Source of the DNA: Chloroflexota bacterium | GTDB taxonomy: Bacteria > Chloroflexota > Anaerolineae > Aggregatilineales > Phototrophicaceae | DNA: 64,000 nt | Assembly (NCBI GenBank): GCA_026707745.1 | Contig: JAPOWG010000019.1 | Location: 27,464-91,463, forward strand | Direction: 5' to 3' | Shown: one piece after another, positions 5,701 to 53,762 of the stretch | Layout of the letters: every line of letters starts with the position of its first letter | How positions within the stretch are numbered: the stretch's first letter is position 1 | Translations under genes and position numbers: made by a program | Notes under the pieces: model-generated | What the model saw: the letters and a program-made list of their open reading frames with translations, nothing else | The model's database searches: none | Told to the model about the DNA's origin: nothing

Positions 5701-6474
5701 ATGCATTCGTTACGAATCGTCACGCAGAATATTTGGAACGTGAACGACCATTGGCAGGAGCGCGCCGATGCCATTGGGCAAAACATGCGCGAACTGGACG
5801 TCGATATCATCTGCATCCAGGAATCAGTGCCCGATCACTTCGAGTATCTCAAGTCCCACAGTTTTCGCGGTTTTCCTCATGCCTATTATGCAGCGAGTGA
5901 TGACGGCTCCCAAACGCCTCGGCCGCAGGGACTTGCGATATTCTCGCGACTGGCGGCGCTGGAGGACGGCAAGGTTGAAATCGGGCGCGAGCGCGAGATG
6001 AGCAATCCCTGGATGCGCAATCTGCAGTATATACGCGTGAAACTACCATCCGATCATTCCTTGGCCGTCTTCAATACACACCTGTTTATAAGCAGCACCC
6101 AGAAAAAGACGGGTATCGCGACCTGCGTAGAAGTGATGCAAAGAGAAGAATTTGCCGACTGCATACATGTATTGGCAGGCGATTTCAATATCAAACTCGA
6201 TACGCAACCAGACTATCTGGCGCCGCTTGCGGAGCAACAATATGCCGACATCTGGACCGCGAAAAATGGAGACAAGACGGGTTATACTGCTCCCCATGAC
6301 TTGGATCATCCACTTGACGAACGTATCGACGGACATTTTACGCAGCGGGACCAGCTTGATCGGGTGAAACGTGTCAAACTGGTCAATACCGAGCCGATCA
6401 ACGACGGCAGGCTATTGCTGTCGGATCACATCGGCGTGATGGCAGAATTGGACTTTGATGGCTCGACAAGCTAA
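5701..6474 (+). CDS. endonuclease/exonuclease/phosphatase-fold protein
   Basis: A 257-residue protein with the metal-dependent EEP fold shared by exonuclease III, DNase I and inositol-phosphatases. Visible motifs are TQNIWN at residue 8, CIQES with the Mg-binding Glu at 41, NTHLF, AGDFN near 158 and the terminal LSDHIG near 239. The ATG at 5701 is preferred over an upstream in-frame GTG because GGAGG lies 6 nt before it. No signal peptide is seen, so it acts in the cytoplasm. The fold is clear but the substrate (nucleic acid, phosphodiester or sugar phosphate) is not. Its end overlaps the possible start of the next gene by 20 nt. Confidence 0.8.
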   Translation: MHSLRIVTQNIWNVNDHWQERADAIGQNMRELDVDIICIQESVPDHFEYLKSHSFRGFPHAYYAASDDGSQTPRPQGLAIFSRLAALEDGKVEIGREREMSNPWMRNLQYIRVKLPSDHSLAVFNTHLFISSTQKKTGIATCVEVMQREEFADCIHVLAGDFNIKLDTQPDYLAPLAEQQYADIWTAKNGDKTGYTAPHDLDHPLDERIDGHFTQRDQLDRVKRVKLVNTEPINDGRLLLSDHIGVMAELDFDGSTS

Positions 6475-6925
6475 GTGCGGGAAACGGCCAAGGGAAGATC
6501 CTGTTCCCGGGGCCAGCGTGTCACTTGAAATGACCTATTGCAGCTTCTGTGGGCGCTTGAGCCAGCGCTGCGCCTGCCACGAGGCCGGCAGCGACCTTCA
6601 GCGCTTTCTGGAGCGCGGCGGCAAAAGCTATGCGCCTTACAAGCGAGACGCGCCCTACAAACGCGGCGTGCCGCCCCAAGTAAAGTCTGCCGAACGCAGG
6701 CATCTCCAGAAGCAATATAAAAACTGGCACACAATCTTGACAGAATCGAATGGCGAATGCTGCGCCAATTGCGGCGAGAGGAAGGACCTGGTATTGGACC
6801 ATGTCCTTCCGATCGCAAAAGGCGGCCTGTCGCGGCTGGACAACCTGCAACTGCTCTGTTCCACCTGCAATCGCATCAAAGGCAAATTGGCGATCGATTG
6901 CCGCCCGGCTAAGCATCGAGAATGA
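6455..6925 (+). CDS. HNH endonuclease with N-terminal zinc-finger-like motif
   Basis: The C-terminal half is an HNH nuclease module: a CxxC zinc knuckle (CANCGE), the catalytic LDHVLPIAKGG, then N and a second CxxC (LLCSTCN). The N-terminal part has a second cysteine cluster (YCSFCGRLSQRCAC) like a small treble-clef or C4 finger. The start is uncertain: ATG 6455 overlaps the preceding gene, and GTG 6518 or ATG 6530 would give shorter products that still include both zinc motifs. None has a good ribosome-binding site. The 3' end overlaps the convergent dioxygenase gene by 17 nt. Probably a stand-alone DNA nuclease; its role is not shown by the context. Confidence 0.75.
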   Translation: MMARQAKCGKRPREDPVPGASVSLEMTYCSFCGRLSQRCACHEAGSDLQRFLERGGKSYAPYKRDAPYKRGVPPQVKSAERRHLQKQYKNWHTILTESNGECCANCGERKDLVLDHVLPIAKGGLSRLDNLQLLCSTCNRIKGKLAIDCRPAKHRE

Positions 6926-7667
6926 AGCGATGGGCGGGGCCGAGGCGGGACAGGGTCCGCTCGCTGAGAAAGGCTTTCTGGTCCATTTGCTGGGCATTGT
7001 GGCGGCGCGTGAAATACGAGTGCAAGGCATAGCGCGGCGCATCGGTGTGGTTGGTCGTGCCGGCATGCCATAGATGCGAGTTGAAGATGACAACTGTGCC
7101 TGCGGCGCCGGTCAGCAGCATTTCCTGCGGGTGCTTCTCCCAAGGGTTGTCCATGACGTCGCCAGGCAGCTTACCCGACCGATGGGAACCGGGCACGACC
7201 CGCGTGGCGCCGTTGTCGGCGGTGAAATCCACCAGCAGCCAGATGGAATTACACACTTGAAAGTTCTTTGGATCGACGCCGCTGGACCAATCCGCATGGA
7301 AGGCTTGCACGCCATCGCCGGGCACAGACGCGCGACCGTTGAGCGATGACAGCTTGAAGTCCCCCTTGAGGACATGGTTCATCGCCGCCAGGACGCGAGG
7401 ATGGGTGAAGCAGATTTCAAAGAGCGGGTCCTTGTCGACGAGATTGGCCAGACGGACCGCTCCTTTTTCCTGCCCGAATTCGCTGCCGGCTGCCTTGCCT
7501 TCCTCGGCCATCAATTCCTGCACCCGTTCGCGGATGGCGCTCACTTCCTCCGGTGACAAGACAGCGGGCAAGGGCAAATATCCGCGCTCATCGAGTTGCT
7601 GAATCTCTTCGTCGCTCAGGGTGGCGTCTGTGACACCGAAAGTGGAAAGAGCGGTTTGCATGTCCAT
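6909..7667 (-). CDS. phytanoyl-CoA dioxygenase family protein
   Basis: A 252-residue Fe(II)/2-oxoglutarate-dependent oxygenase of the PhyH family. The facial triad is visible as HxD (FHADWS, His124 and Asp126) and the distal His201 (LWHAG). Arg212 (APRYAL) is the likely 2-oxoglutarate-binding residue. Full length for the family. AGGAA lies 8-10 nt before the ATG. It would hydroxylate a small organic molecule; bacterial members act on varied substrates, so phytanoyl-CoA itself should not be assumed. It is transcribed alone, convergent with the HNH gene and divergent from the second sugar importer. Confidence 0.85.
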   Translation of the reverse strand: MDMQTALSTFGVTDATLSDEEIQQLDERGYLPLPAVLSPEEVSAIRERVQELMAEEGKAAGSEFGQEKGAVRLANLVDKDPLFEICFTHPRVLAAMNHVLKGDFKLSSLNGRASVPGDGVQAFHADWSSGVDPKNFQVCNSIWLLVDFTADNGATRVVPGSHRSGKLPGDVMDNPWEKHPQEMLLTGAAGTVVIFNSHLWHAGTTNHTDAPRYALHSYFTRRHNAQQMDQKAFLSERTLSRLGPAHRFILDA

Positions 7668-7958
7668 GCTGGGGATTCCTGTCGCTGGGACTGTGGCGTC
7701 AATTAGAACACAACTGGTTCAATGGCGCTACTGATCGAAGCCCCTCCGTCATTTGGGGGCGCTGCCAGCAATAGGCTGTGCCTTCAGGCAATTCGGAATG
7801 AACAATATCATGCGACGCATTCACGAGACACGGCATTAGCAACTATTCGCTATCCGGTCGAAACGCGCTATACTAAATGGCGCTCCGGCGGAAGTGTTTT
7901 CCTTACCGTATGCCGGAAGCATATCTATCAATAATCATTCACTGGACAGGAGTATCTC

Positions 7959-9632
7959 ATGAAAGGTAAAGTTTCGATCCTGATCGCGCTTATGATTTTC
8001 GCGATCGGTGTCCTTGGGGTTTCCGCACAGGACACGTTTTTTGGCAAGACGGCGCAGGAATTGTTCCCGATCCCTGAAGTCGCCGAAACGGAACTGGAGC
8101 AGACCCTCGCCTTTGAAGCTCTGCTCGGAGCCAACATTCCCGACGGTCACGCACTAGGCGAAGGCAAGACGATCACCTTCGGCGTCTTGGGTCAAGGCTC
8201 GCGCGGCGGCATCTCTGGCACGATATACTTCTGGCGCAATGCCTTTGAAGCAGCCACCGGCGCCACCCTGGAAATCGTCGAAATCCCCTATAACCAGCTG
8301 GGTACCACCATCCCGGCCGACTTCCTGACCGGGCAATACACTTATGATGTCTTCATTGGCGCCGCCTGGCAGTATGGCGACTGGATTAGCAACGGCTGGA
8401 TCCAGCCGATCGACCAATGGATTGGCGACGAGCGCTTCGCTCATTGGACGCCGGAAGACACGGCTCCTGCTTTCCGCGCCCTGCTGCAATGGGGCGGCGA
8501 AACTTACGGCAGCCAGATGGACGGCGATGCGCAGCTGCTCTACTATCGCCATGACATCCTCAGCGATCCCGAATGGCAAGCCGCCTACGAAGCTGAAGTT
8601 GGCTCGCCCATGCCCTATCCCATCGTCACCTGGCAGGATCTGCTGGCGATCACCAGCTTCTTCAATGGCAAGGACTGGAACGGCGATGGCGATCCCGATG
8701 ATGGCATCAGCCTCCACCTGGCGCCGGGCGGGCAGGGACACTTCCACTTCGCCACGCTGGCCGCTTCCTTCGCGGTGACGCCAGGCGATGGCGATAACCC
8801 GCGCGCCGTCAGCAAATACGACAATGTCTTCTGGTTCGATCCGGACGATATGACCCCGCTGATCAATGAGCCAGGCCACGTCATGGCGCTGGAATTCCTG
8901 CAAGAGCTGGCGGCGACCGGCCAGGAAGCGCAGTTCGGCTGGCAGCTGGGCGAAGCTTGGGATAACTTCCTCGGCGGCAACGCCATCGCCACCTTCAGCT
9001 GGGGCGATGTCGGCTCACTGTCGCAGAACACCGAGCGCTCCGCCATCCGCGGCAGCCTGGGCGCGGACGTCACGCCCTGTTCCAGCGAATGGTACGACCG
9101 CGAAATCGGCGAGGTGGTTGTGGATACCGAGAATCCCAACTGTGTCGGCAACACCACCGGCGGCTCCTGGCACCCGACCATGTCGGCTTTCACCGAAAAT
9201 CCCGAGCTGACCTACTTCTACATGGCGCTGATCGCCAACCCGTCCATCAATTTCTACAACGCCACCACCGGCTGGCAAGGCGTCGATCCCTGCTGCACCT
9301 ATCAGCTCTATGCGCCGCGCGGGACGGCTGTCTCCGAAGATTACACCGCCGTTGGCTTCGATGCTGCTGACATGGAACGCTATATCAACGCCTACGGCTC
9401 CAACGTTTATGACAAGCCGACTTCGGTGACCTACCTGCGCATTCCGGGCACGCTGGAATACATCCAGGAGACGCTCGACATTCGCTTGTCAGAAGCGATG
9501 ACCGGGCAGTCGTCGGCGCAGGAAGCGCTGGACAACACGGCCGAAGACTGGGAAGAAGTCACCGACGATCTCGATATCGACAGCCAGTTGGAGATCTACC
9601 AGCAGGCTATCGGTTACATGGGCGGGATGTAA
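7959..9632 (+). CDS. ABC transporter solute-binding protein (family 1, large)
   Basis: A 557-residue extracellular solute-binding protein with a signal peptide (residues 1-23, cleavage VSA|Q) and no lipobox cysteine. The mature chain has family 1 hallmarks such as TYDVFIGAAWQYGDW and YPIVTWQDLLAITSFF. It is about 130 residues longer than usual sugar-binding proteins. AGGAG lies 6 nt before the ATG. A TATACT box at 7869-7874 may be the -10 of its promoter. Two permeases follow, each separated by a hairpin repeat. A sugar, polyol or oligosaccharide is the likely ligand; the sequence does not decide which. Confidence 0.88.
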   Translation: MKGKVSILIALMIFAIGVLGVSAQDTFFGKTAQELFPIPEVAETELEQTLAFEALLGANIPDGHALGEGKTITFGVLGQGSRGGISGTIYFWRNAFEAATGATLEIVEIPYNQLGTTIPADFLTGQYTYDVFIGAAWQYGDWISNGWIQPIDQWIGDERFAHWTPEDTAPAFRALLQWGGETYGSQMDGDAQLLYYRHDILSDPEWQAAYEAEVGSPMPYPIVTWQDLLAITSFFNGKDWNGDGDPDDGISLHLAPGGQGHFHFATLAASFAVTPGDGDNPRAVSKYDNVFWFDPDDMTPLINEPGHVMALEFLQELAATGQEAQFGWQLGEAWDNFLGGNAIATFSWGDVGSLSQNTERSAIRGSLGADVTPCSSEWYDREIGEVVVDTENPNCVGNTTGGSWHPTMSAFTENPELTYFYMALIANPSINFYNATTGWQGVDPCCTYQLYAPRGTAVSEDYTAVGFDAADMERYINAYGSNVYDKPTSVTYLRIPGTLEYIQETLDIRLSEAMTGQSSAQEALDNTAEDWEEVTDDLDIDSQLEIYQQAIGYMGGM

Positions 9633-46107: not shown

Positions 46108-47292
46108 TCATGCGCGATAGCGCGCCAGCACGGGCAACATGCGCTCCACCGCTTCCTTGAGCGTTTCAATCGGTTCCAGCAACGTGATGCGGACGTACTC
46201 GCGCCAATTTTCGCCGAAGGCAGTCCCGGGAAAGATCAAAACCCGCCCCTCTTTCAAGAGCAGATAAGACAGCTCGGCGGCGTGGATGCCCGTGGACGAG
46301 CTGTCCGCCCAAACAAAAAGCCCGCCGCGCGGCTCGCCATAGGCAAAGCCCATGCGATCCAGTCCATCCAGCAAGACGGCGCGCCGCTTCGTGTAAATCT
46401 TCAAGTAATCGCTGACGCAGTCCTGCGGACCGGCGAGGGCAGCCAAACCCGCCCATTGCGATACCGTGGCCACCGGACCCGTCGTAACCTGTTTGACGCG
46501 CGCCATGGCATCAATCACGTTTTCCGGCGCGGCCACATAGCCGCAGCGCCAGCCAGTCATCGCGTAGGCTTTGGAGAAGGCGTCCAGCGTGATCGTTCGT
46601 TCGGCCATGCCCGGCAGCGAACCGATGCTGAAATGCCGCCAGGGCTCATAGACAATTCTTCCGTAAATCTCGTCGACGATCACGATCAGGTTGTGGCGGA
46701 TGCAGACATCGGCGATGGCGCGCAGCCGGTCTTCGGTGACAATGCCGGCGGTGGGGTTGCTCGGCGTCACGATCAACAGCGCCTTGCTCGCCGGAGTGAT
46801 GGCCGCCTCAACCGCTTCCGCTTCCAGGTTAAAGGCGTCTTCGCGATCCGTCGACACCATGACCATTTTGCCGCCCGCTCGACGAATGGCATCGTCATAG
46901 GAGGTATAGCGCGGGTCCGGCACCAGGATTTCGTCCCCCGGGTCAATTAAGGCCTGTATAGCCAGGAAGAGCCCTTCCTGGCCGCCGGTCGTGACCATCA
47001 CATTTTCCGCTCCGACGGGCAAGCCATTGTATTCGCGCATATGATCGGCGATGGCGCCGCGCAATTGCGGCAGGCCCTTGACCGGAGTCAGACCGGTACG
47101 CCCCTCGCGCATGGCTTGGTTGGCGGCTTCGACGATGTGGGGCGGGGTCGGCAGGTCAGGATCGCCGCGTCCCAGCGTGATGATATCGTCCATCTGTCCC
47201 GCCATCTCCATCAAGGCGTAGCGCAATTGCGTGCCATCAGCGGCGACGGCGCGGACTTCGTCCGGGATGTTGGGATTTTCATTCATCGTCAT
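46108..47292 (-). CDS. PLP-dependent aminotransferase, class I/II
   Basis: A 394-residue fold-type I aminotransferase. Substrate/cofactor motifs are visible: VTTGGQEGLFLAIQALI, NPTAG, the Asp in IVIVDEIYG, and the Schiff-base Lys in TLDAFSKAYAMTGWR. ATG 47292 overlaps the stop of the shorter aminotransferase-like gene (ATGA) and has GAGGA about 8 nt upstream. It would move an amino group between an amino acid and a 2-oxoacid. A truncated lysine-less paralogue lies directly upstream and is translationally coupled. Confidence 0.92.
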   Translation of the reverse strand: MTMNENPNIPDEVRAVAADGTQLRYALMEMAGQMDDIITLGRGDPDLPTPPHIVEAANQAMREGRTGLTPVKGLPQLRGAIADHMREYNGLPVGAENVMVTTGGQEGLFLAIQALIDPGDEILVPDPRYTSYDDAIRRAGGKMVMVSTDREDAFNLEAEAVEAAITPASKALLIVTPSNPTAGIVTEDRLRAIADVCIRHNLIVIVDEIYGRIVYEPWRHFSIGSLPGMAERTITLDAFSKAYAMTGWRCGYVAAPENVIDAMARVKQVTTGPVATVSQWAGLAALAGPQDCVSDYLKIYTKRRAVLLDGLDRMGFAYGEPRGGLFVWADSSSTGIHAAELSYLLLKEGRVLIFPGTAFGENWREYVRITLLEPIETLKEAVERMLPVLARYRA

Positions 47293-48008
47293 GTGGCAGT
47301 CCTCACCCATTCAAGCCCGGCCCATTGCGAGACAGCGGTTGTGCAAATAGTGATGGCTTGCTTGCCAGCGCGCAAGCGCAGCGCCGCCGCCGAGCCCGCC
47401 ATCCAGCCCAGCCGCCAGCCGGGCAATGCAGCGGACAAGGAATCGATGGTCACCACGCGGGAGGCCAGCCTTTCGTTCTGCGCCGGGTGAAACGGCGGCG
47501 CGGTCTTGGCGAAGCTGAGGTCGTAGACGATCCACCAGTCGGTTTCTTCCGCGTGCTGTAAAAGCTCGATGCTGGTTTCGCGATAGACATCGGGACTGAT
47601 GTAAAGCAAGCTGATGTCCTCTCGTATCGAATCAATTATCTCGGCGCCCAGAATGTGCAAGGCCCCGCGGATACGCGACGAGTCCCCGGGGCAGAGCACA
47701 GCGCCGCCTGCTTCCGCCAGCAGCGTCATCGTCACGAAACGGGCTTCCGTGCTGCCGCAGGTAATGGTGACTTCCGCTGGGTCGACGACCACAGCGTAGC
47801 GCTCGCGCAGATGATCGGCCACCCAAGCGCGAAACTCGGGGATGCCGGGACGGTCGGTGTAGTGTGTCTCGCCGCGCGCCAAGGCAGCCACGGCCGCCTC
47901 GATCACATTTGCCGGGACATCGGGATCGCCTGTGCGAGGCGAGCAAAGATCATCCAGGGCGGCGACGCGCTCCGCCAGCGGACTGCTGAGTGTTTGTGGA
48001 CTTTGCAT
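47289..48008 (-). CDS. truncated aminotransferase-like protein lacking the catalytic lysine
   Basis: A 239-residue paralogue of the next aminotransferase. The N-terminal and large-domain parts align (HYTDRPGIPEFRAWVADHLR, TITCGSTEARFVTM). At the PLP site TIDSLSAALPGWRLGW replaces the Lys-containing FSKAYAMTGWR, with a two-residue deletion, so no Schiff-base Lys is present. The NPT motif is also gone and the protein stops after SQWAGL, so the C-terminal domain is missing. The frame is intact and coupled by ATGA to the full-length enzyme. It may be a regulatory pseudo-enzyme or a decaying gene. Confidence 0.75.
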   Translation of the reverse strand: MQSPQTLSSPLAERVAALDDLCSPRTGDPDVPANVIEAAVAALARGETHYTDRPGIPEFRAWVADHLRERYAVVVDPAEVTITCGSTEARFVTMTLLAEAGGAVLCPGDSSRIRGALHILGAEIIDSIREDISLLYISPDVYRETSIELLQHAEETDWWIVYDLSFAKTAPPFHPAQNERLASRVVTIDSLSAALPGWRLGWMAGSAAALRLRAGKQAITICTTAVSQWAGLEWVRTAT

Positions 48009-48029
48009 GCAGTTGTCTTTCTCCTCGGC

Positions 48030-49827: not shown

Positions 49828-50700
49828 TTAGAGCAGCAAATCTTTCAAATTCACGCCGGGCGTCACCATGGGCTCGATATTGCCGCCGGCCGAGGTCATG
49901 ATCAGGGTGATGCCGGGCCCATAACCCGCGCGCGGACTGTCGCCCTGCGCGATCACGCCGATGCCGACCGCATCCCGCAGATAGCCGTGATTCCAACTGC
50001 TGTCGTAATCCGTCAAGGACACGACATCGCCCAGCCGCAGTTGATCCAGGCCCGCCTCCTTGACCGCGTCGCTGTCGGCGGTCTGAATGTGGATCGAGCC
50101 GCCATCGCTGACCAAGCCGGCGCCGGCGCCCAGCAAATGCGGCGGCACCTGCGCCACAACCGGCACCGAGAGCTTGCCCTCCGCGTTGGTCGTTACTTCA
50201 AGGGCATCGACCAATTCCGGCGAGCAGCCCTTGAGCATGATATCGGCATGGTCATCGAACTTGAGTCCCACGCCCTTGGCTTTGATGACGATCTTGTCGC
50301 CGATGGCCAGCTGCTCGCGCACCTCCGGATCGAAGTGAATGATGACATGCTCGGAGAAACGTCCCGTCTTGCCGGTGACCATGCCGCGCGCCCGCTGCGC
50401 GTTGCCAGTCATGACAATGGCGGTATTGCCCACGCAGGACAGGACGTTAAGCCCGCGATTGCCGGTGGCGTCATTGAGCATCACGCTGACGCCGGGATGA
50501 ACGCAATCCGCCAGCCAGCCATAAGCCGAATCGCCGATGGAAACGTTGTAGACGATGCTGCCATACGCCGGCAAAAGAAAGGGCGTGCCATCGGCCGCCA
50601 GGGAGTAGGGCATGGCCGGCAAGGGCGGCATGCGCGGCGGCGTGATCACGCCTTGTACGGATACACTGACAACTTGCTGGGCATTGTTTTTCGCGCTCAT
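49828..50700 (-). CDS. DUF4438 domain protein (copy A)
   Basis: A 290-residue DUF4438 protein. Characteristic stretches are the glycine-rich GSIVYNVSIGDSAYGW, CVGNTAIVMTGNAQRARGMVTGK, the strand pair GDKIVIKAKGVGLK and GIGVIAQGDSPRAGYGPGIT near the end. The family has structures but no established activity as far as I recall. It is cytoplasmic (no signal). It overlaps the second DUF4438 gene by 4 nt and shares its operator at 51640. The two copies are about equally long and are likely to act together. Confidence 0.8.
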   Translation of the reverse strand: MSAKNNAQQVVSVSVQGVITPPRMPPLPAMPYSLAADGTPFLLPAYGSIVYNVSIGDSAYGWLADCVHPGVSVMLNDATGNRGLNVLSCVGNTAIVMTGNAQRARGMVTGKTGRFSEHVIIHFDPEVREQLAIGDKIVIKAKGVGLKFDDHADIMLKGCSPELVDALEVTTNAEGKLSVPVVAQVPPHLLGAGAGLVSDGGSIHIQTADSDAVKEAGLDQLRLGDVVSLTDYDSSWNHGYLRDAVGIGVIAQGDSPRAGYGPGITLIMTSAGGNIEPMVTPGVNLKDLLL

Positions 50701-51557
50701 GATACCTTCCGAATGTTCAAGTAGTTGGCAATATTTGCGTCCGGGTCAATCACCCACTCGATGCAGGGTTCGTCGCATGTCATCAGGGTCAGGATGCCGG
50801 GTCCGTGCCCGGTCATGATCGAATCGCCGTGAATGCACAAGCCGATGGTGACGGCGCCGGGTTTATAACCGCGCCCAAAGCGATGATCGGCATGGTTCAC
50901 CACCACCAGGTCGCCCAGCCGCATCTGATCAATGCCGAGCTCGGCCATCAGCGCGCGATCGCCGGACATCAAGTCCTGGTCGACGAAGTCCGGATTCAAC
51001 TCGGCGCCGGAACCCATGATCCGAATCGGCAATTCCATCGTCACCGGCACACGGATCCTGCGCTCGTCAAGCGCTTCAATGGGCAGACTATCGAACAGCC
51101 GCGGGCTGCATTTCTTGAGCGTGATATGCGGGTAATCGACCAGTTGCAAACCCTGTCCCTTGGCGCGGATCTGCACCGCGTCGCCGACGCCGATCAGTTC
51201 GGCGGCTTCCGGCGGGAAGTCCACCAGCAAACGCGCATGCTCCCCGGTGACGATGCCCTCTGTTCCTTGCGCCAGGCCGCTCATGACAAACGCCTGGTTG
51301 CCCATGCAGGTCAGGTAGTGCATGGCATAGTCGGCATCAAGATCGGGATGGGCGATTGAAGCCCCAGGCTCCAGATGATCCGCCGCCCATCCAAAGGCCT
51401 CATCACCGACCCGCGCGTTGTAAATCATGCCAGACATGCCAGGCAAGATCGTGGCTTCGCCGCTGGCATGGGGTATATAACCCCGGACTGTCGGCTGGCT
51501 CACATAGCCGACCACGGCCATTTCCACCAATTGGTCGGCGTTCGTCGCTAATCCCAT
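50697..51557 (-). CDS. DUF4438 domain protein (copy B)
   Basis: A 286-residue paralogue of the following gene. The same landmarks are present: SGMIYNARVGDEAFGWAADH, CMGNQAFVMSGLAQGTEGIV, GDAVQIRAKGQGLQ and ITLKKCSPRL. The ATG at 51557 was chosen because GAAGGG lies 8 nt upstream; the frame is open to 51698 but without a better start. It is the first gene of the operon that continues with copy A, the VOC protein and the Ldh_2 dehydrogenase. An FCD-type operator and -10 lie at 51635-51651. Confidence 0.8.
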   Translation of the reverse strand: MGLATNADQLVEMAVVGYVSQPTVRGYIPHASGEATILPGMSGMIYNARVGDEAFGWAADHLEPGASIAHPDLDADYAMHYLTCMGNQAFVMSGLAQGTEGIVTGEHARLLVDFPPEAAELIGVGDAVQIRAKGQGLQLVDYPHITLKKCSPRLFDSLPIEALDERRIRVPVTMELPIRIMGSGAELNPDFVDQDLMSGDRALMAELGIDQMRLGDLVVVNHADHRFGRGYKPGAVTIGLCIHGDSIMTGHGPGILTLMTCDEPCIEWVIDPDANIANYLNIRKVS

Positions 51558-52064: not shown

Positions 52065-52754
52065 ATGGAACCGATTCAGACCTTGCCGCTGCGAGAGCGT
52101 GTCATCAATACGCTTCGTGATGCGATCGTGAATGGCGAGTTAGTGCCGGGGCAGGCTTTGGTCGGCACAGAACTGGCCAACCAGATCGGCGTAAGCCAGG
52201 CGACCTTGCGCGACGCCATCTATGCGCTCAGCCTCGAAGGCTTGGTCGAGACGGTGGCATATCACGTATCAACGGTCAAAACGCTCTCGAAAAAAGACAT
52301 CGAGGATCTGTTCAGCGTCCGCAGCATGCTGGAAAGCTATGCGATACGGCAGATCGTGGCGACCGACCAGGCAGCCGCCGCCGTGAGCGAACTCTATGCG
52401 ATCTGCGATGAGATGGAGGACGCGGCCGAACAAGACAGCCTGACGGATCTCAACCGGATCGACCGCATGTTTCACGATACCTTGATCGACTTCAGCGGCA
52501 ATCAACTGCTGCGCGTCTTGTGGAATAGCGTGGCGCAGCGCGTTCAGCAAGTGCTGTCGCTAAGCAACCAGCAGCAAGGGAACCTGCGGCAAATCGTCCT
52601 CAATCATCGCGAGATCGCGCAGGTAATCGAGAACGGAGATGCCGAAGCCGCTGTCGGCCTAATGAATACGCATATCAGCTTCGTCGCGGACGAGATCTGC
52701 GGCAACTGGCATCAAATTGCGCTGGGAACAAACGGCGGACAACAGAGACAATAG
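52065..52754 (+). CDS. GntR-family transcriptional regulator, FCD (FadR) subfamily
   Basis: A 229-residue regulator. The winged-helix domain is at about residues 5-70 (RDAIVNGELVPGQALVGTEL, then GVSQATLRDAIYALSLEGLV). The FCD effector domain follows, with metal/acid-binding residues in RMFHDTLIDFSGN and HREIAQVIENGDAEAA. Such proteins repress catabolic operons and respond to a carboxylate. A D-2-hydroxyacid dehydrogenase gene follows 15 nt later. It is the only GntR gene in the window and so the best candidate for the shared operator at 21166 and 51640. Confidence 0.9.
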   Translation: MEPIQTLPLRERVINTLRDAIVNGELVPGQALVGTELANQIGVSQATLRDAIYALSLEGLVETVAYHVSTVKTLSKKDIEDLFSVRSMLESYAIRQIVATDQAAAAVSELYAICDEMEDAAEQDSLTDLNRIDRMFHDTLIDFSGNQLLRVLWNSVAQRVQQVLSLSNQQQGNLRQIVLNHREIAQVIENGDAEAAVGLMNTHISFVADEICGNWHQIALGTNGGQQRQ

Positions 52755-52769
52755 AAGGGAAGCCTCAAC

Positions 52770-53762
52770 ATGGCAAATGCAGTCGAAACGCACAGGGTAT
52801 TGGTTGCCGATGCAGGATATAAGGCGGCAATTACGGACCTTTCAGGCGAGTTTCCAAACTTGGACATACTTGGCGCCAGCGACGCCGCCGACGCAGCCGC
52901 GCTGGCGAGTGACAAAATAGTCGGCCTGATCGCCGATACAGCGCCGATAGACGAAAATCTGCTGGGCAAGATGAGCAATCTGCGCGCGGTATTGAAGCTG
53001 GGCCGCAGTTACTTCAATATCGATGTCGATGCCCTGCGCCGGCGCGGAACCCATTTTGGCTGCGTCCCGCGCAAGGGTCCGAACTGTGTGGCGGAACTGG
53101 CGCTGACGCTGATCATGGCATTGAGCAAGGACTTGATCGTCGGCAACGAGGCCGTGGCAGTGGGCGCTTATCGCTACCGCGGCATCAAACCCGAGTTAAC
53201 CTCGCAGCGCAAGATCGCTTTCCATTGGATGAAAAACGAACGCGTTCACGAGGTCACGGGCAAGACGCTCGGCATCATCGGCATGGGCGAGATCGGCTGT
53301 GAACTGGCGCGCCGCGCCAGCGTCATGGGCATGCGAAATATCTACTACAAGCGCAAGCCGCTTTCGGCCGAACTGGAAGGGATTTTTGACGCGGGCTATC
53401 GTGATCTCGATGACCTGCTGCGCGAGAGCGATTACGTCTGTGTGGCGACGCCGCATACGGCCGAGACCGAGGGAATGATCGGCGCGGGGCAGATTGCGTT
53501 GATGAAAGAAAGCGCCTATCTGGTCAATATCGCGCGCGGCGGCATCATTGACGAAGACGCGATGATCGCGGCCCTGTCCGAGAATCGCATCGCCGGCGCC
53601 GGTCTTGATGTCTTTGCCTACGAGCCCTTGCCGCCAGAAAGTCCGCTCTGCGCGCTGGACAACGTGATCCTCTGCCCGCATATCGGCGGCGGCACGGGCA
53701 CGAATCGGGTTATCGAGTTGGGCGCCGCCTTGCAAGAGATGAACCGGATTCTGACAGGCTAG
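52770..53762 (+). CDS. D-isomer-specific 2-hydroxyacid dehydrogenase
   Basis: A 330-residue NAD-dependent dehydrogenase. The nucleotide-binding GIIGMGEIGCELARRA is near residue 168, the substrate Arg in NIARGGIIDED near 254, the Glu in AYEPLPPES and the catalytic His in CPHIGGGTG near 305. It reduces or oxidises a D-2-hydroxyacid. It is in an operon with the FCD regulator, whose effector may be this enzyme's substrate. GAAGGGA lies upstream of the ATG. It is convergent with the SH3b array. Confidence 0.92.
   Translation: MANAVETHRVLVADAGYKAAITDLSGEFPNLDILGASDAADAAALASDKIVGLIADTAPIDENLLGKMSNLRAVLKLGRSYFNIDVDALRRRGTHFGCVPRKGPNCVAELALTLIMALSKDLIVGNEAVAVGAYRYRGIKPELTSQRKIAFHWMKNERVHEVTGKTLGIIGMGEIGCELARRASVMGMRNIYYKRKPLSAELEGIFDAGYRDLDDLLRESDYVCVATPHTAETEGMIGAGQIALMKESAYLVNIARGGIIDEDAMIAALSENRIAGAGLDVFAYEPLPPESPLCALDNVILCPHIGGGTGTNRVIELGAALQEMNRILTG

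Follow-up and report, generated by a model that had tools for sequence, protein, structure and literature searches.

A probable obligate heterodimeric class I aminotransferase in Chloroflexota, with a lysine-less subunit eroded toward a bare large domain

Class I aminotransferases are textbook homodimers. The interface between the two subunits houses both active sites, the large domain being the part through which these enzymes dimerize, and in aspartate aminotransferase Tyr70 serves the active site of the neighboring subunit. Two related fold-type-I chains with one PLP site are found in the two-subunit bacterial glycine decarboxylase, GcvPA/GcvPB. In serine palmitoyltransferase (LCB1/LCB2) the PLP lysine is present in LCB2 only and a single active site has been proposed (PMC3794620), and in the trypanosomatid DHS and AdoMetDC prozymes a dead paralogue is needed by an impaired partner, with activation described as allosteric (PMC3663545). 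Tyr70 contacts the PLP phosphate and sits at the dimer interface (PMC6715241).

The window analyzed here, the whole 64,000-nucleotide stretch of Chloroflexota DNA, contains two adjoining aminotransferase-like genes, P1 and P2; a second such pair in the same genome is designated P1'/P2'. Residue counts are from alignment columns over 154 sequences, including 35 P1 from across Chloroflexota, 35 P2, 34 P1', 34 P2' and 16 stand-alone aminotransferases. The features of the first pair are:

46108..47292, minus strand: P2, a full-length class I/II aminotransferase of 394 aa, the proposed catalytic subunit
46570..46572, minus strand: codon for P2 Lys241, the Schiff-base lysine (Lys in 35/35 P2)
47089..47091, minus strand: codon for P2 Leu68, in the same alignment column as P1 Tyr50 (Tyr in 0/35 P2 orthologues)
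47289..47292, minus strand: ATGA overlap of the P1 stop and P2 start (translational coupling)
47289..48008, minus strand: P1, a truncated, Lys-less aminotransferase paralogue of 239 aa, the proposed non-catalytic subunit
47343..47363, minus strand: KQAITIC, P1 residues 216-222, the most constrained P1 segment
47415..47435, minus strand: SAALPGW, P1 residues 192-198, site of the lost Lys (A, E, D, H, G, Q, V, N or T among orthologues)
47859..47861, minus strand: codon for P1 Tyr50, the Tyr70 position (Tyr in 69/69 P1 and P1' sequences)
48021..48026, minus strand: GAGGAG, ribosome-binding-site-like, upstream of the P1 ATG

The 239-residue P1 product aligns with the adjoining 394-residue aminotransferase across residues 7-232 (E=4e-21, 28% identity, with large gaps), bearing out the relationship proposed in an earlier sequence-only reading of this DNA. 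That reading listed the loss of the Schiff-base lysine, the NPT motif and the C-terminal domain, all of which we find, but the list was incomplete, in that about 20-30 internal residues between strands are gone too. At the Schiff-base region P2 reads FSKAYAMTGWR and P1 reads LSAALPGWR, with the lysine missing and two residues deleted; TPSNPTAGIV in P2 is matched by SPDVYRETSI in P1; and P1 terminates in SQWAGLEWVRTAT, at the start of the small domain, with the column of the small-domain substrate arginine (Arg386) empty in 31 of 35 P1 sequences. PF00155 (Aminotran_1_2) matches P1 at residues 31-107 only, with 46 bits against a cut-off of 19.7, and P1 shares the homology and large-domain fold of that family and lacks both its small C-terminal domain and its Schiff-base lysine, the latter absent from 34 of the 35 orthologues with the window copy among them. 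Though the lysine and the asparagine are gone, P1 retains the pyridine-Asp position (Asp163, 47520-47522, minus strand; the Asp222 position, kept in 34/35 P1 sequences) and the phosphate-Arg position (Arg199, 47412-47414, minus strand; the Arg266 position, kept in 33/35); an empty P1 pocket would not account for this retention, which may reflect a structural role or residual ligand binding.

P2 scores 246.7 bits against PF00155, and its closest PDB structures are those of the aromatic aminotransferase of Pyrococcus horikoshii and of further class I aspartate aminotransferases. The equivalents of Lys258, Asn194, Asp222, Tyr225, Ser255, Arg266 and Arg386 are each present in all 35 P2 sequences, and a copy of the trans-acting Tyr70 is present in none (0/35). 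GAGGA stands upstream of P2, and the ATGA overlap, from which coupling of P1 to the full-length enzyme had been proposed, can be read directly in the sequence.

An AlphaFold2 model of P1 computed with 33 aligned homologues has a pLDDT of 84, a pTM of 0.81 and seven strands in the large domain; with 18 close relatives as input the pLDDT had been 58. The best PDB matches to the model are class I aminotransferases, with TM scores by query length mostly of 0.7-0.8, and together these results indicate that P1 consists of little more than the large domain.

P1 is present in 27 of the 34 genomes of the genus (its own included), at 65-100% identity in 26 of them and 43-44% in G033, and at 39% identity in a single genome from a second genus of the family. 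All 28 orthologues, the window copy included, have lost the lysine and contain no internal stops, and with this many stop-free genes sharing it the lesion is neither chance nor a sequencing fault. In every one of the 28 genomes a P2 orthologue directly follows P1 on the same strand, with a 4-bp overlap in 25 and a gap of 104-145 bp in three; in distant lineages the spacing ranges from a 14 bp overlap to a 2 bp gap. A separate search with P2 recovered orthologues (at least 60% identity) in exactly the 28 P1-bearing genomes and none in the 33 other genomes searched, where the next best matches are at most 46% identical. Judged by co-occurrence only, a dead paralogue is thus obligately paired with an active one, an organization of the LCB1/LCB2 type.

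Both genes are under constraint, with a median dN/dS (NG86, pairs with dS below 1) of 0.21 for P1 (167 pairs) and 0.10 for P2. By pN/pS the tightest segments of P1 are LRLRAGKQAITICTTAVSQWAGLE, which contains the KQ..ICT motif (0.04), and LARGETHYTDRPGIPEFRAWVADHL, which contains the Tyr motif (0.09), and the loosest are the N-terminus (0.51) and the region of the lost lysine (0.33).

The Tyr-bearing motif aligns without gaps between the two proteins (GETHYTDRPGIP in P1, GRTGLTPVKGLP in P2). At the Tyr column itself tyrosine is present in 35/35 P1, 34/34 P1' and 16/16 stand-alone sequences (counting one, L007, whose ETRYAAPSKG is one column out of register), in 21/34 P2' and in 0/35 P2, where the residue is Pro (11), Leu (10), Ala (8), Val (3), and then Glu, Met or Ile; the 13 of 34 P2' sequences that have lost it carry Val, His, Ser, Pro, Phe or Ala. 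The Schiff-base lysine is distributed the other way, in 1/35 P1, 0/34 P1', 35/35 P2, 34/34 P2' and 16/16 stand-alone enzymes. When the whole alignment is scanned at strict thresholds, Tyr is the sole column that stand-alone enzymes and pseudo-subunits have retained but catalytic subunits have lost, and 12-21 columns have the opposite pattern; with looser thresholds a few weaker columns join Tyr and the opposite pattern extends to 30-64 columns. Many of the compared sequences are close relatives, so the Tyr and Lys counts do not represent independent events. The reciprocal Tyr pattern is as an obligate heterodimer would predict. Within KQAITIC, the Q, I and C are conserved in P1 and P1', and the I and C are missing from nearly all P2 and P2'; KQ..ICT may be a second trans-acting element, which we leave as a suggestion because, though conserved in P1 and P1', it is only partly common to the stand-alone aminotransferases.

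The second dead/active pair, P1'/P2', is located at L109 (G000:C53:34000-46594, positions 6171-8456, minus strand). P1' (P0003) is a full-length protein of 366 aa that is Lys-less and has SRLSG in place of NPT, and P2' (P0004), of 386 aa, contains the lysine and is encoded directly downstream. P1' is full length in 30 of the 34 genomes of the genus, with a broken piece in a 31st, and beyond the genus it occurs in three more genera of the family and in two further families of the class; P2' adjoins P1' at every neighborhood read. An Ldh_2-like gene is close to both pairs, and other dehydrogenase and peptidase-like genes are near P1'/P2'.

The second pair repeats the asymmetry of the first in part, with Tyr in all 34 P1' and still in 21 of the 34 P2' sequences. 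On a tree built without the Tyr motif, the Tyr state has changed at least 6 times across P2, P2' and six stand-alone relatives. The Tyr position, as sampled here, is unstable in P2' and invariant in the dead subunits, whether the P2' Tyr is ancestral or regained. P2 and P2' form sister clades (support of 95 for P2, 100 for P2' and 92 for their grouping), and a branch with an SH-aLRT of 98 has all P1 and P1' to one side of it; the tree derives from a 'quick' search and its P1 branches are long, such that it does not fix whether the lysine was lost once or more than once.

Two sets of candidate relatives were set aside. The 19 loci L055-L072 and L074, considered as further pseudo-subunits, are ordinary Lys-bearing aminotransferases matched through their PGWRLGWM motif, and a 748-aa frame in G018 that might have been a natural P1-P2 fusion is an ordinary 385-aa aminotransferase inside a long frame.

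Upstream of P2 orthologues elsewhere in the phylum, P1 is found in differing states. In G189 (L159) it is full length with Lys, NPT and Tyr, and its P2 already has Met at the Tyr position; in G483 (L169) and G744 (L168) it is full length with the lysine replaced by His and Ala, respectively; in G346 (L157) the C-domain is gone and the inner segment kept; and in G310 (L158) and the window's family the C-domain is gone and the inner segment reduced. The likely order of events is that Tyr was lost from P2, then Lys from P1, then the C-domain and finally the inner loops. A full-length, Lys-bearing copy at the orthologous locus, which the sequence-only reading named as grounds for doubting its proposal, does exist, but only in the distant family of G189 (L149/L159), where it looks like an early stage at the base of the erosion series and not the norm. 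We consider it probable that obligate heterodimeric class I aminotransferases occur across the Chloroflexota as at least two paralogous pairs, in which the active site has been divided between two chains, one half carried by a catalytic subunit and the other by a structural subunit that has eroded step by step until only the large domain is left, and that living intermediates of these steps exist.

P1 and P2 lie in an operon-like run with two DUF4438 genes, VOC, an Ldh_2 dehydrogenase, an oligopeptide-type ABC importer, SDR and acetamidase/formamidase, and the order DUF4438-DUF4438-VOC-Ldh_2-P1-P2 is retained in G033 and G034 (L110, L111; judged by protein starts). The DUF4438 proteins, a family of unknown function for which a literature search found no paper, probably act in the same pathway as P1/P2. 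The two adjoin one another in the window (49828-51554, minus strand), and the same order stands beside the pair in other genera; a DUF4438-like gene is also near the pair in G189, G744 and G483. At 52065-53762 (plus strand) a GntR/FCD regulator and a 2-hydroxyacid dehydrogenase are encoded divergently, and a similar dehydrogenase directly follows P2 in G744 and G483 (L168, L169). In G033 and G034 (L110, L111) peptidase- and amidohydrolase-like genes, judged by sequence starts only, follow the pair, and these neighbors suggest that the compound catabolized may be peptide-like or a cyclic amide. For P1/P2 our guess is that they help to break down an amino or amide compound that the cell imports.

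We propose that P1 and P2 most likely make up an obligately heterodimeric aminotransferase of fold type I, in which the two chains share a single composite active site. The lesion, its conservation, co-occurrence, selection, the reciprocal residue pattern and the predicted fold support this proposal, and from them we infer that the two proteins physically associate, that the complex is active and that Tyr50 acts in trans. P2 would bind PLP through Lys241 and carry all of the own-subunit catalytic residues; P1 would have lost its own pocket and small domain, keeping the large domain as dimer interface and wall of its partner's site, and would contribute Tyr50, the counterpart of Tyr70 in aspartate aminotransferase, as a contact for the PLP phosphate of P2, with the ATGA coupling holding the subunits near 1:1. 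With nothing opposite it but the dead pocket of P1, the Tyr position of P2 would be free to drift, and because the residue that P2 has lost is kept only by P1, P1 looks like the structural half of an active site and not an accessory regulator. P2, its site otherwise complete, might also act as a homodimer with weaker phosphate binding.

The main rival, which strikes us as unlikely, is a prozyme-type regulatory or decoy partner, with P1 activating P2 allosterically, stabilizing it or inhibiting it from outside the active site and P2 functioning also as a homodimer. Pseudo-paralogues that activate through oligomerization are known from the trypanosomatid DHS and AdoMetDC prozymes (PMC3663545), and P1 is a large-domain-only protein, but such a partner would leave unaccounted for both the strict co-occurrence and the loss from P2 of a Tyr that is kept in P1 and in every stand-alone relative. 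It is more doubtful still, and in our estimation very improbable, that P1 pairs with itself as a homodimer and has taken on a new function that does not involve PLP, still within the same pathway, for example ligand binding through the Asp and Arg; the Asp222 and Arg266 positions are indeed retained in P1, but P1' keeps the Asp222 position and Tyr and has lost Arg266, and the most conserved segments of P1 are the Tyr and KQ..ICT motifs and not a new pocket.

Scarcely credible is the idea that P1 is a degenerating duplicate retained only for translational coupling into P2. Its losses of Lys, NPT and the C-domain, the ATGA overlap and its faster evolution relative to P2 would be compatible with this, but its dN/dS of 0.21 includes segments at 0.04-0.09, 28 orthologues are intact, the same pairing is present in other families, and three orthologues do not overlap P2. 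The sequence-only reading had offered early decay of a duplicate as one possibility, and this is rejected by the conserved lesion (the same in all 28 orthologues), the dN/dS of about 0.21, which is purifying with no relaxed selection seen, the strict co-occurrence and the conserved coupling; the intact orthologues and the dN/dS likewise rule out P1 as a decay product or an assembly artefact. The other possibility that it raised, a pseudo-enzyme that binds or regulates its twin, is strongly supported by the conserved lesion, purifying selection, co-occurrence and coupling.

If P1 and P2 form an obligate heterodimer, sequence alone reveals here that the dead chain has kept a cross-interface residue which the catalytic chain no longer has, and the relatives would provide a stepwise natural series from homodimer to obligate heterodimer in which a pseudoenzyme shrinks to the needs of its partner. 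Restoring Tyr in P2 is predicted to give back an independent homodimer. For annotation pipelines, short 'aminotransferase fragments' can be essential subunits.

A literature search, with most subscription journals outside its scope, recovered no heterodimeric or lysine-less aminotransferase pair; such a dead/active division of labor seems to be undescribed for class I aminotransferases, and we know of no case of a dead aminotransferase subunit reduced to its large domain. Homology of P2 to the Thermus thermophilus aspartate aminotransferase (1b5o) and the P. horikoshii aromatic aminotransferase (1gd9) extends over almost the entire protein, and P1 matches their large domain, but both of these enzymes are homodimeric, and Lys and Tyr are present in each of their two equal sites. 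P1/P2 resembles the eukaryotic fold-type-I PLP enzyme LCB1/LCB2 in having paralogous dead and active chains, the P1/P2 heterodimer being deduced from sequence; however, LCB1/LCB2 belongs to the alpha-oxoamine synthase family and not to the class I aminotransferases, no large-domain-only form of it is known, and in P2, unlike LCB1/LCB2, a trans residue retained by the dead partner has visibly been lost. GcvPA/GcvPB differs in family and reaction and in that both chains are full length, and the trypanosomatid prozymes, which P1/P2 recalls functionally, are eukaryotic proteins of unrelated folds. P1/P2 belongs to none of these systems, and is derived from class I aminotransferases.
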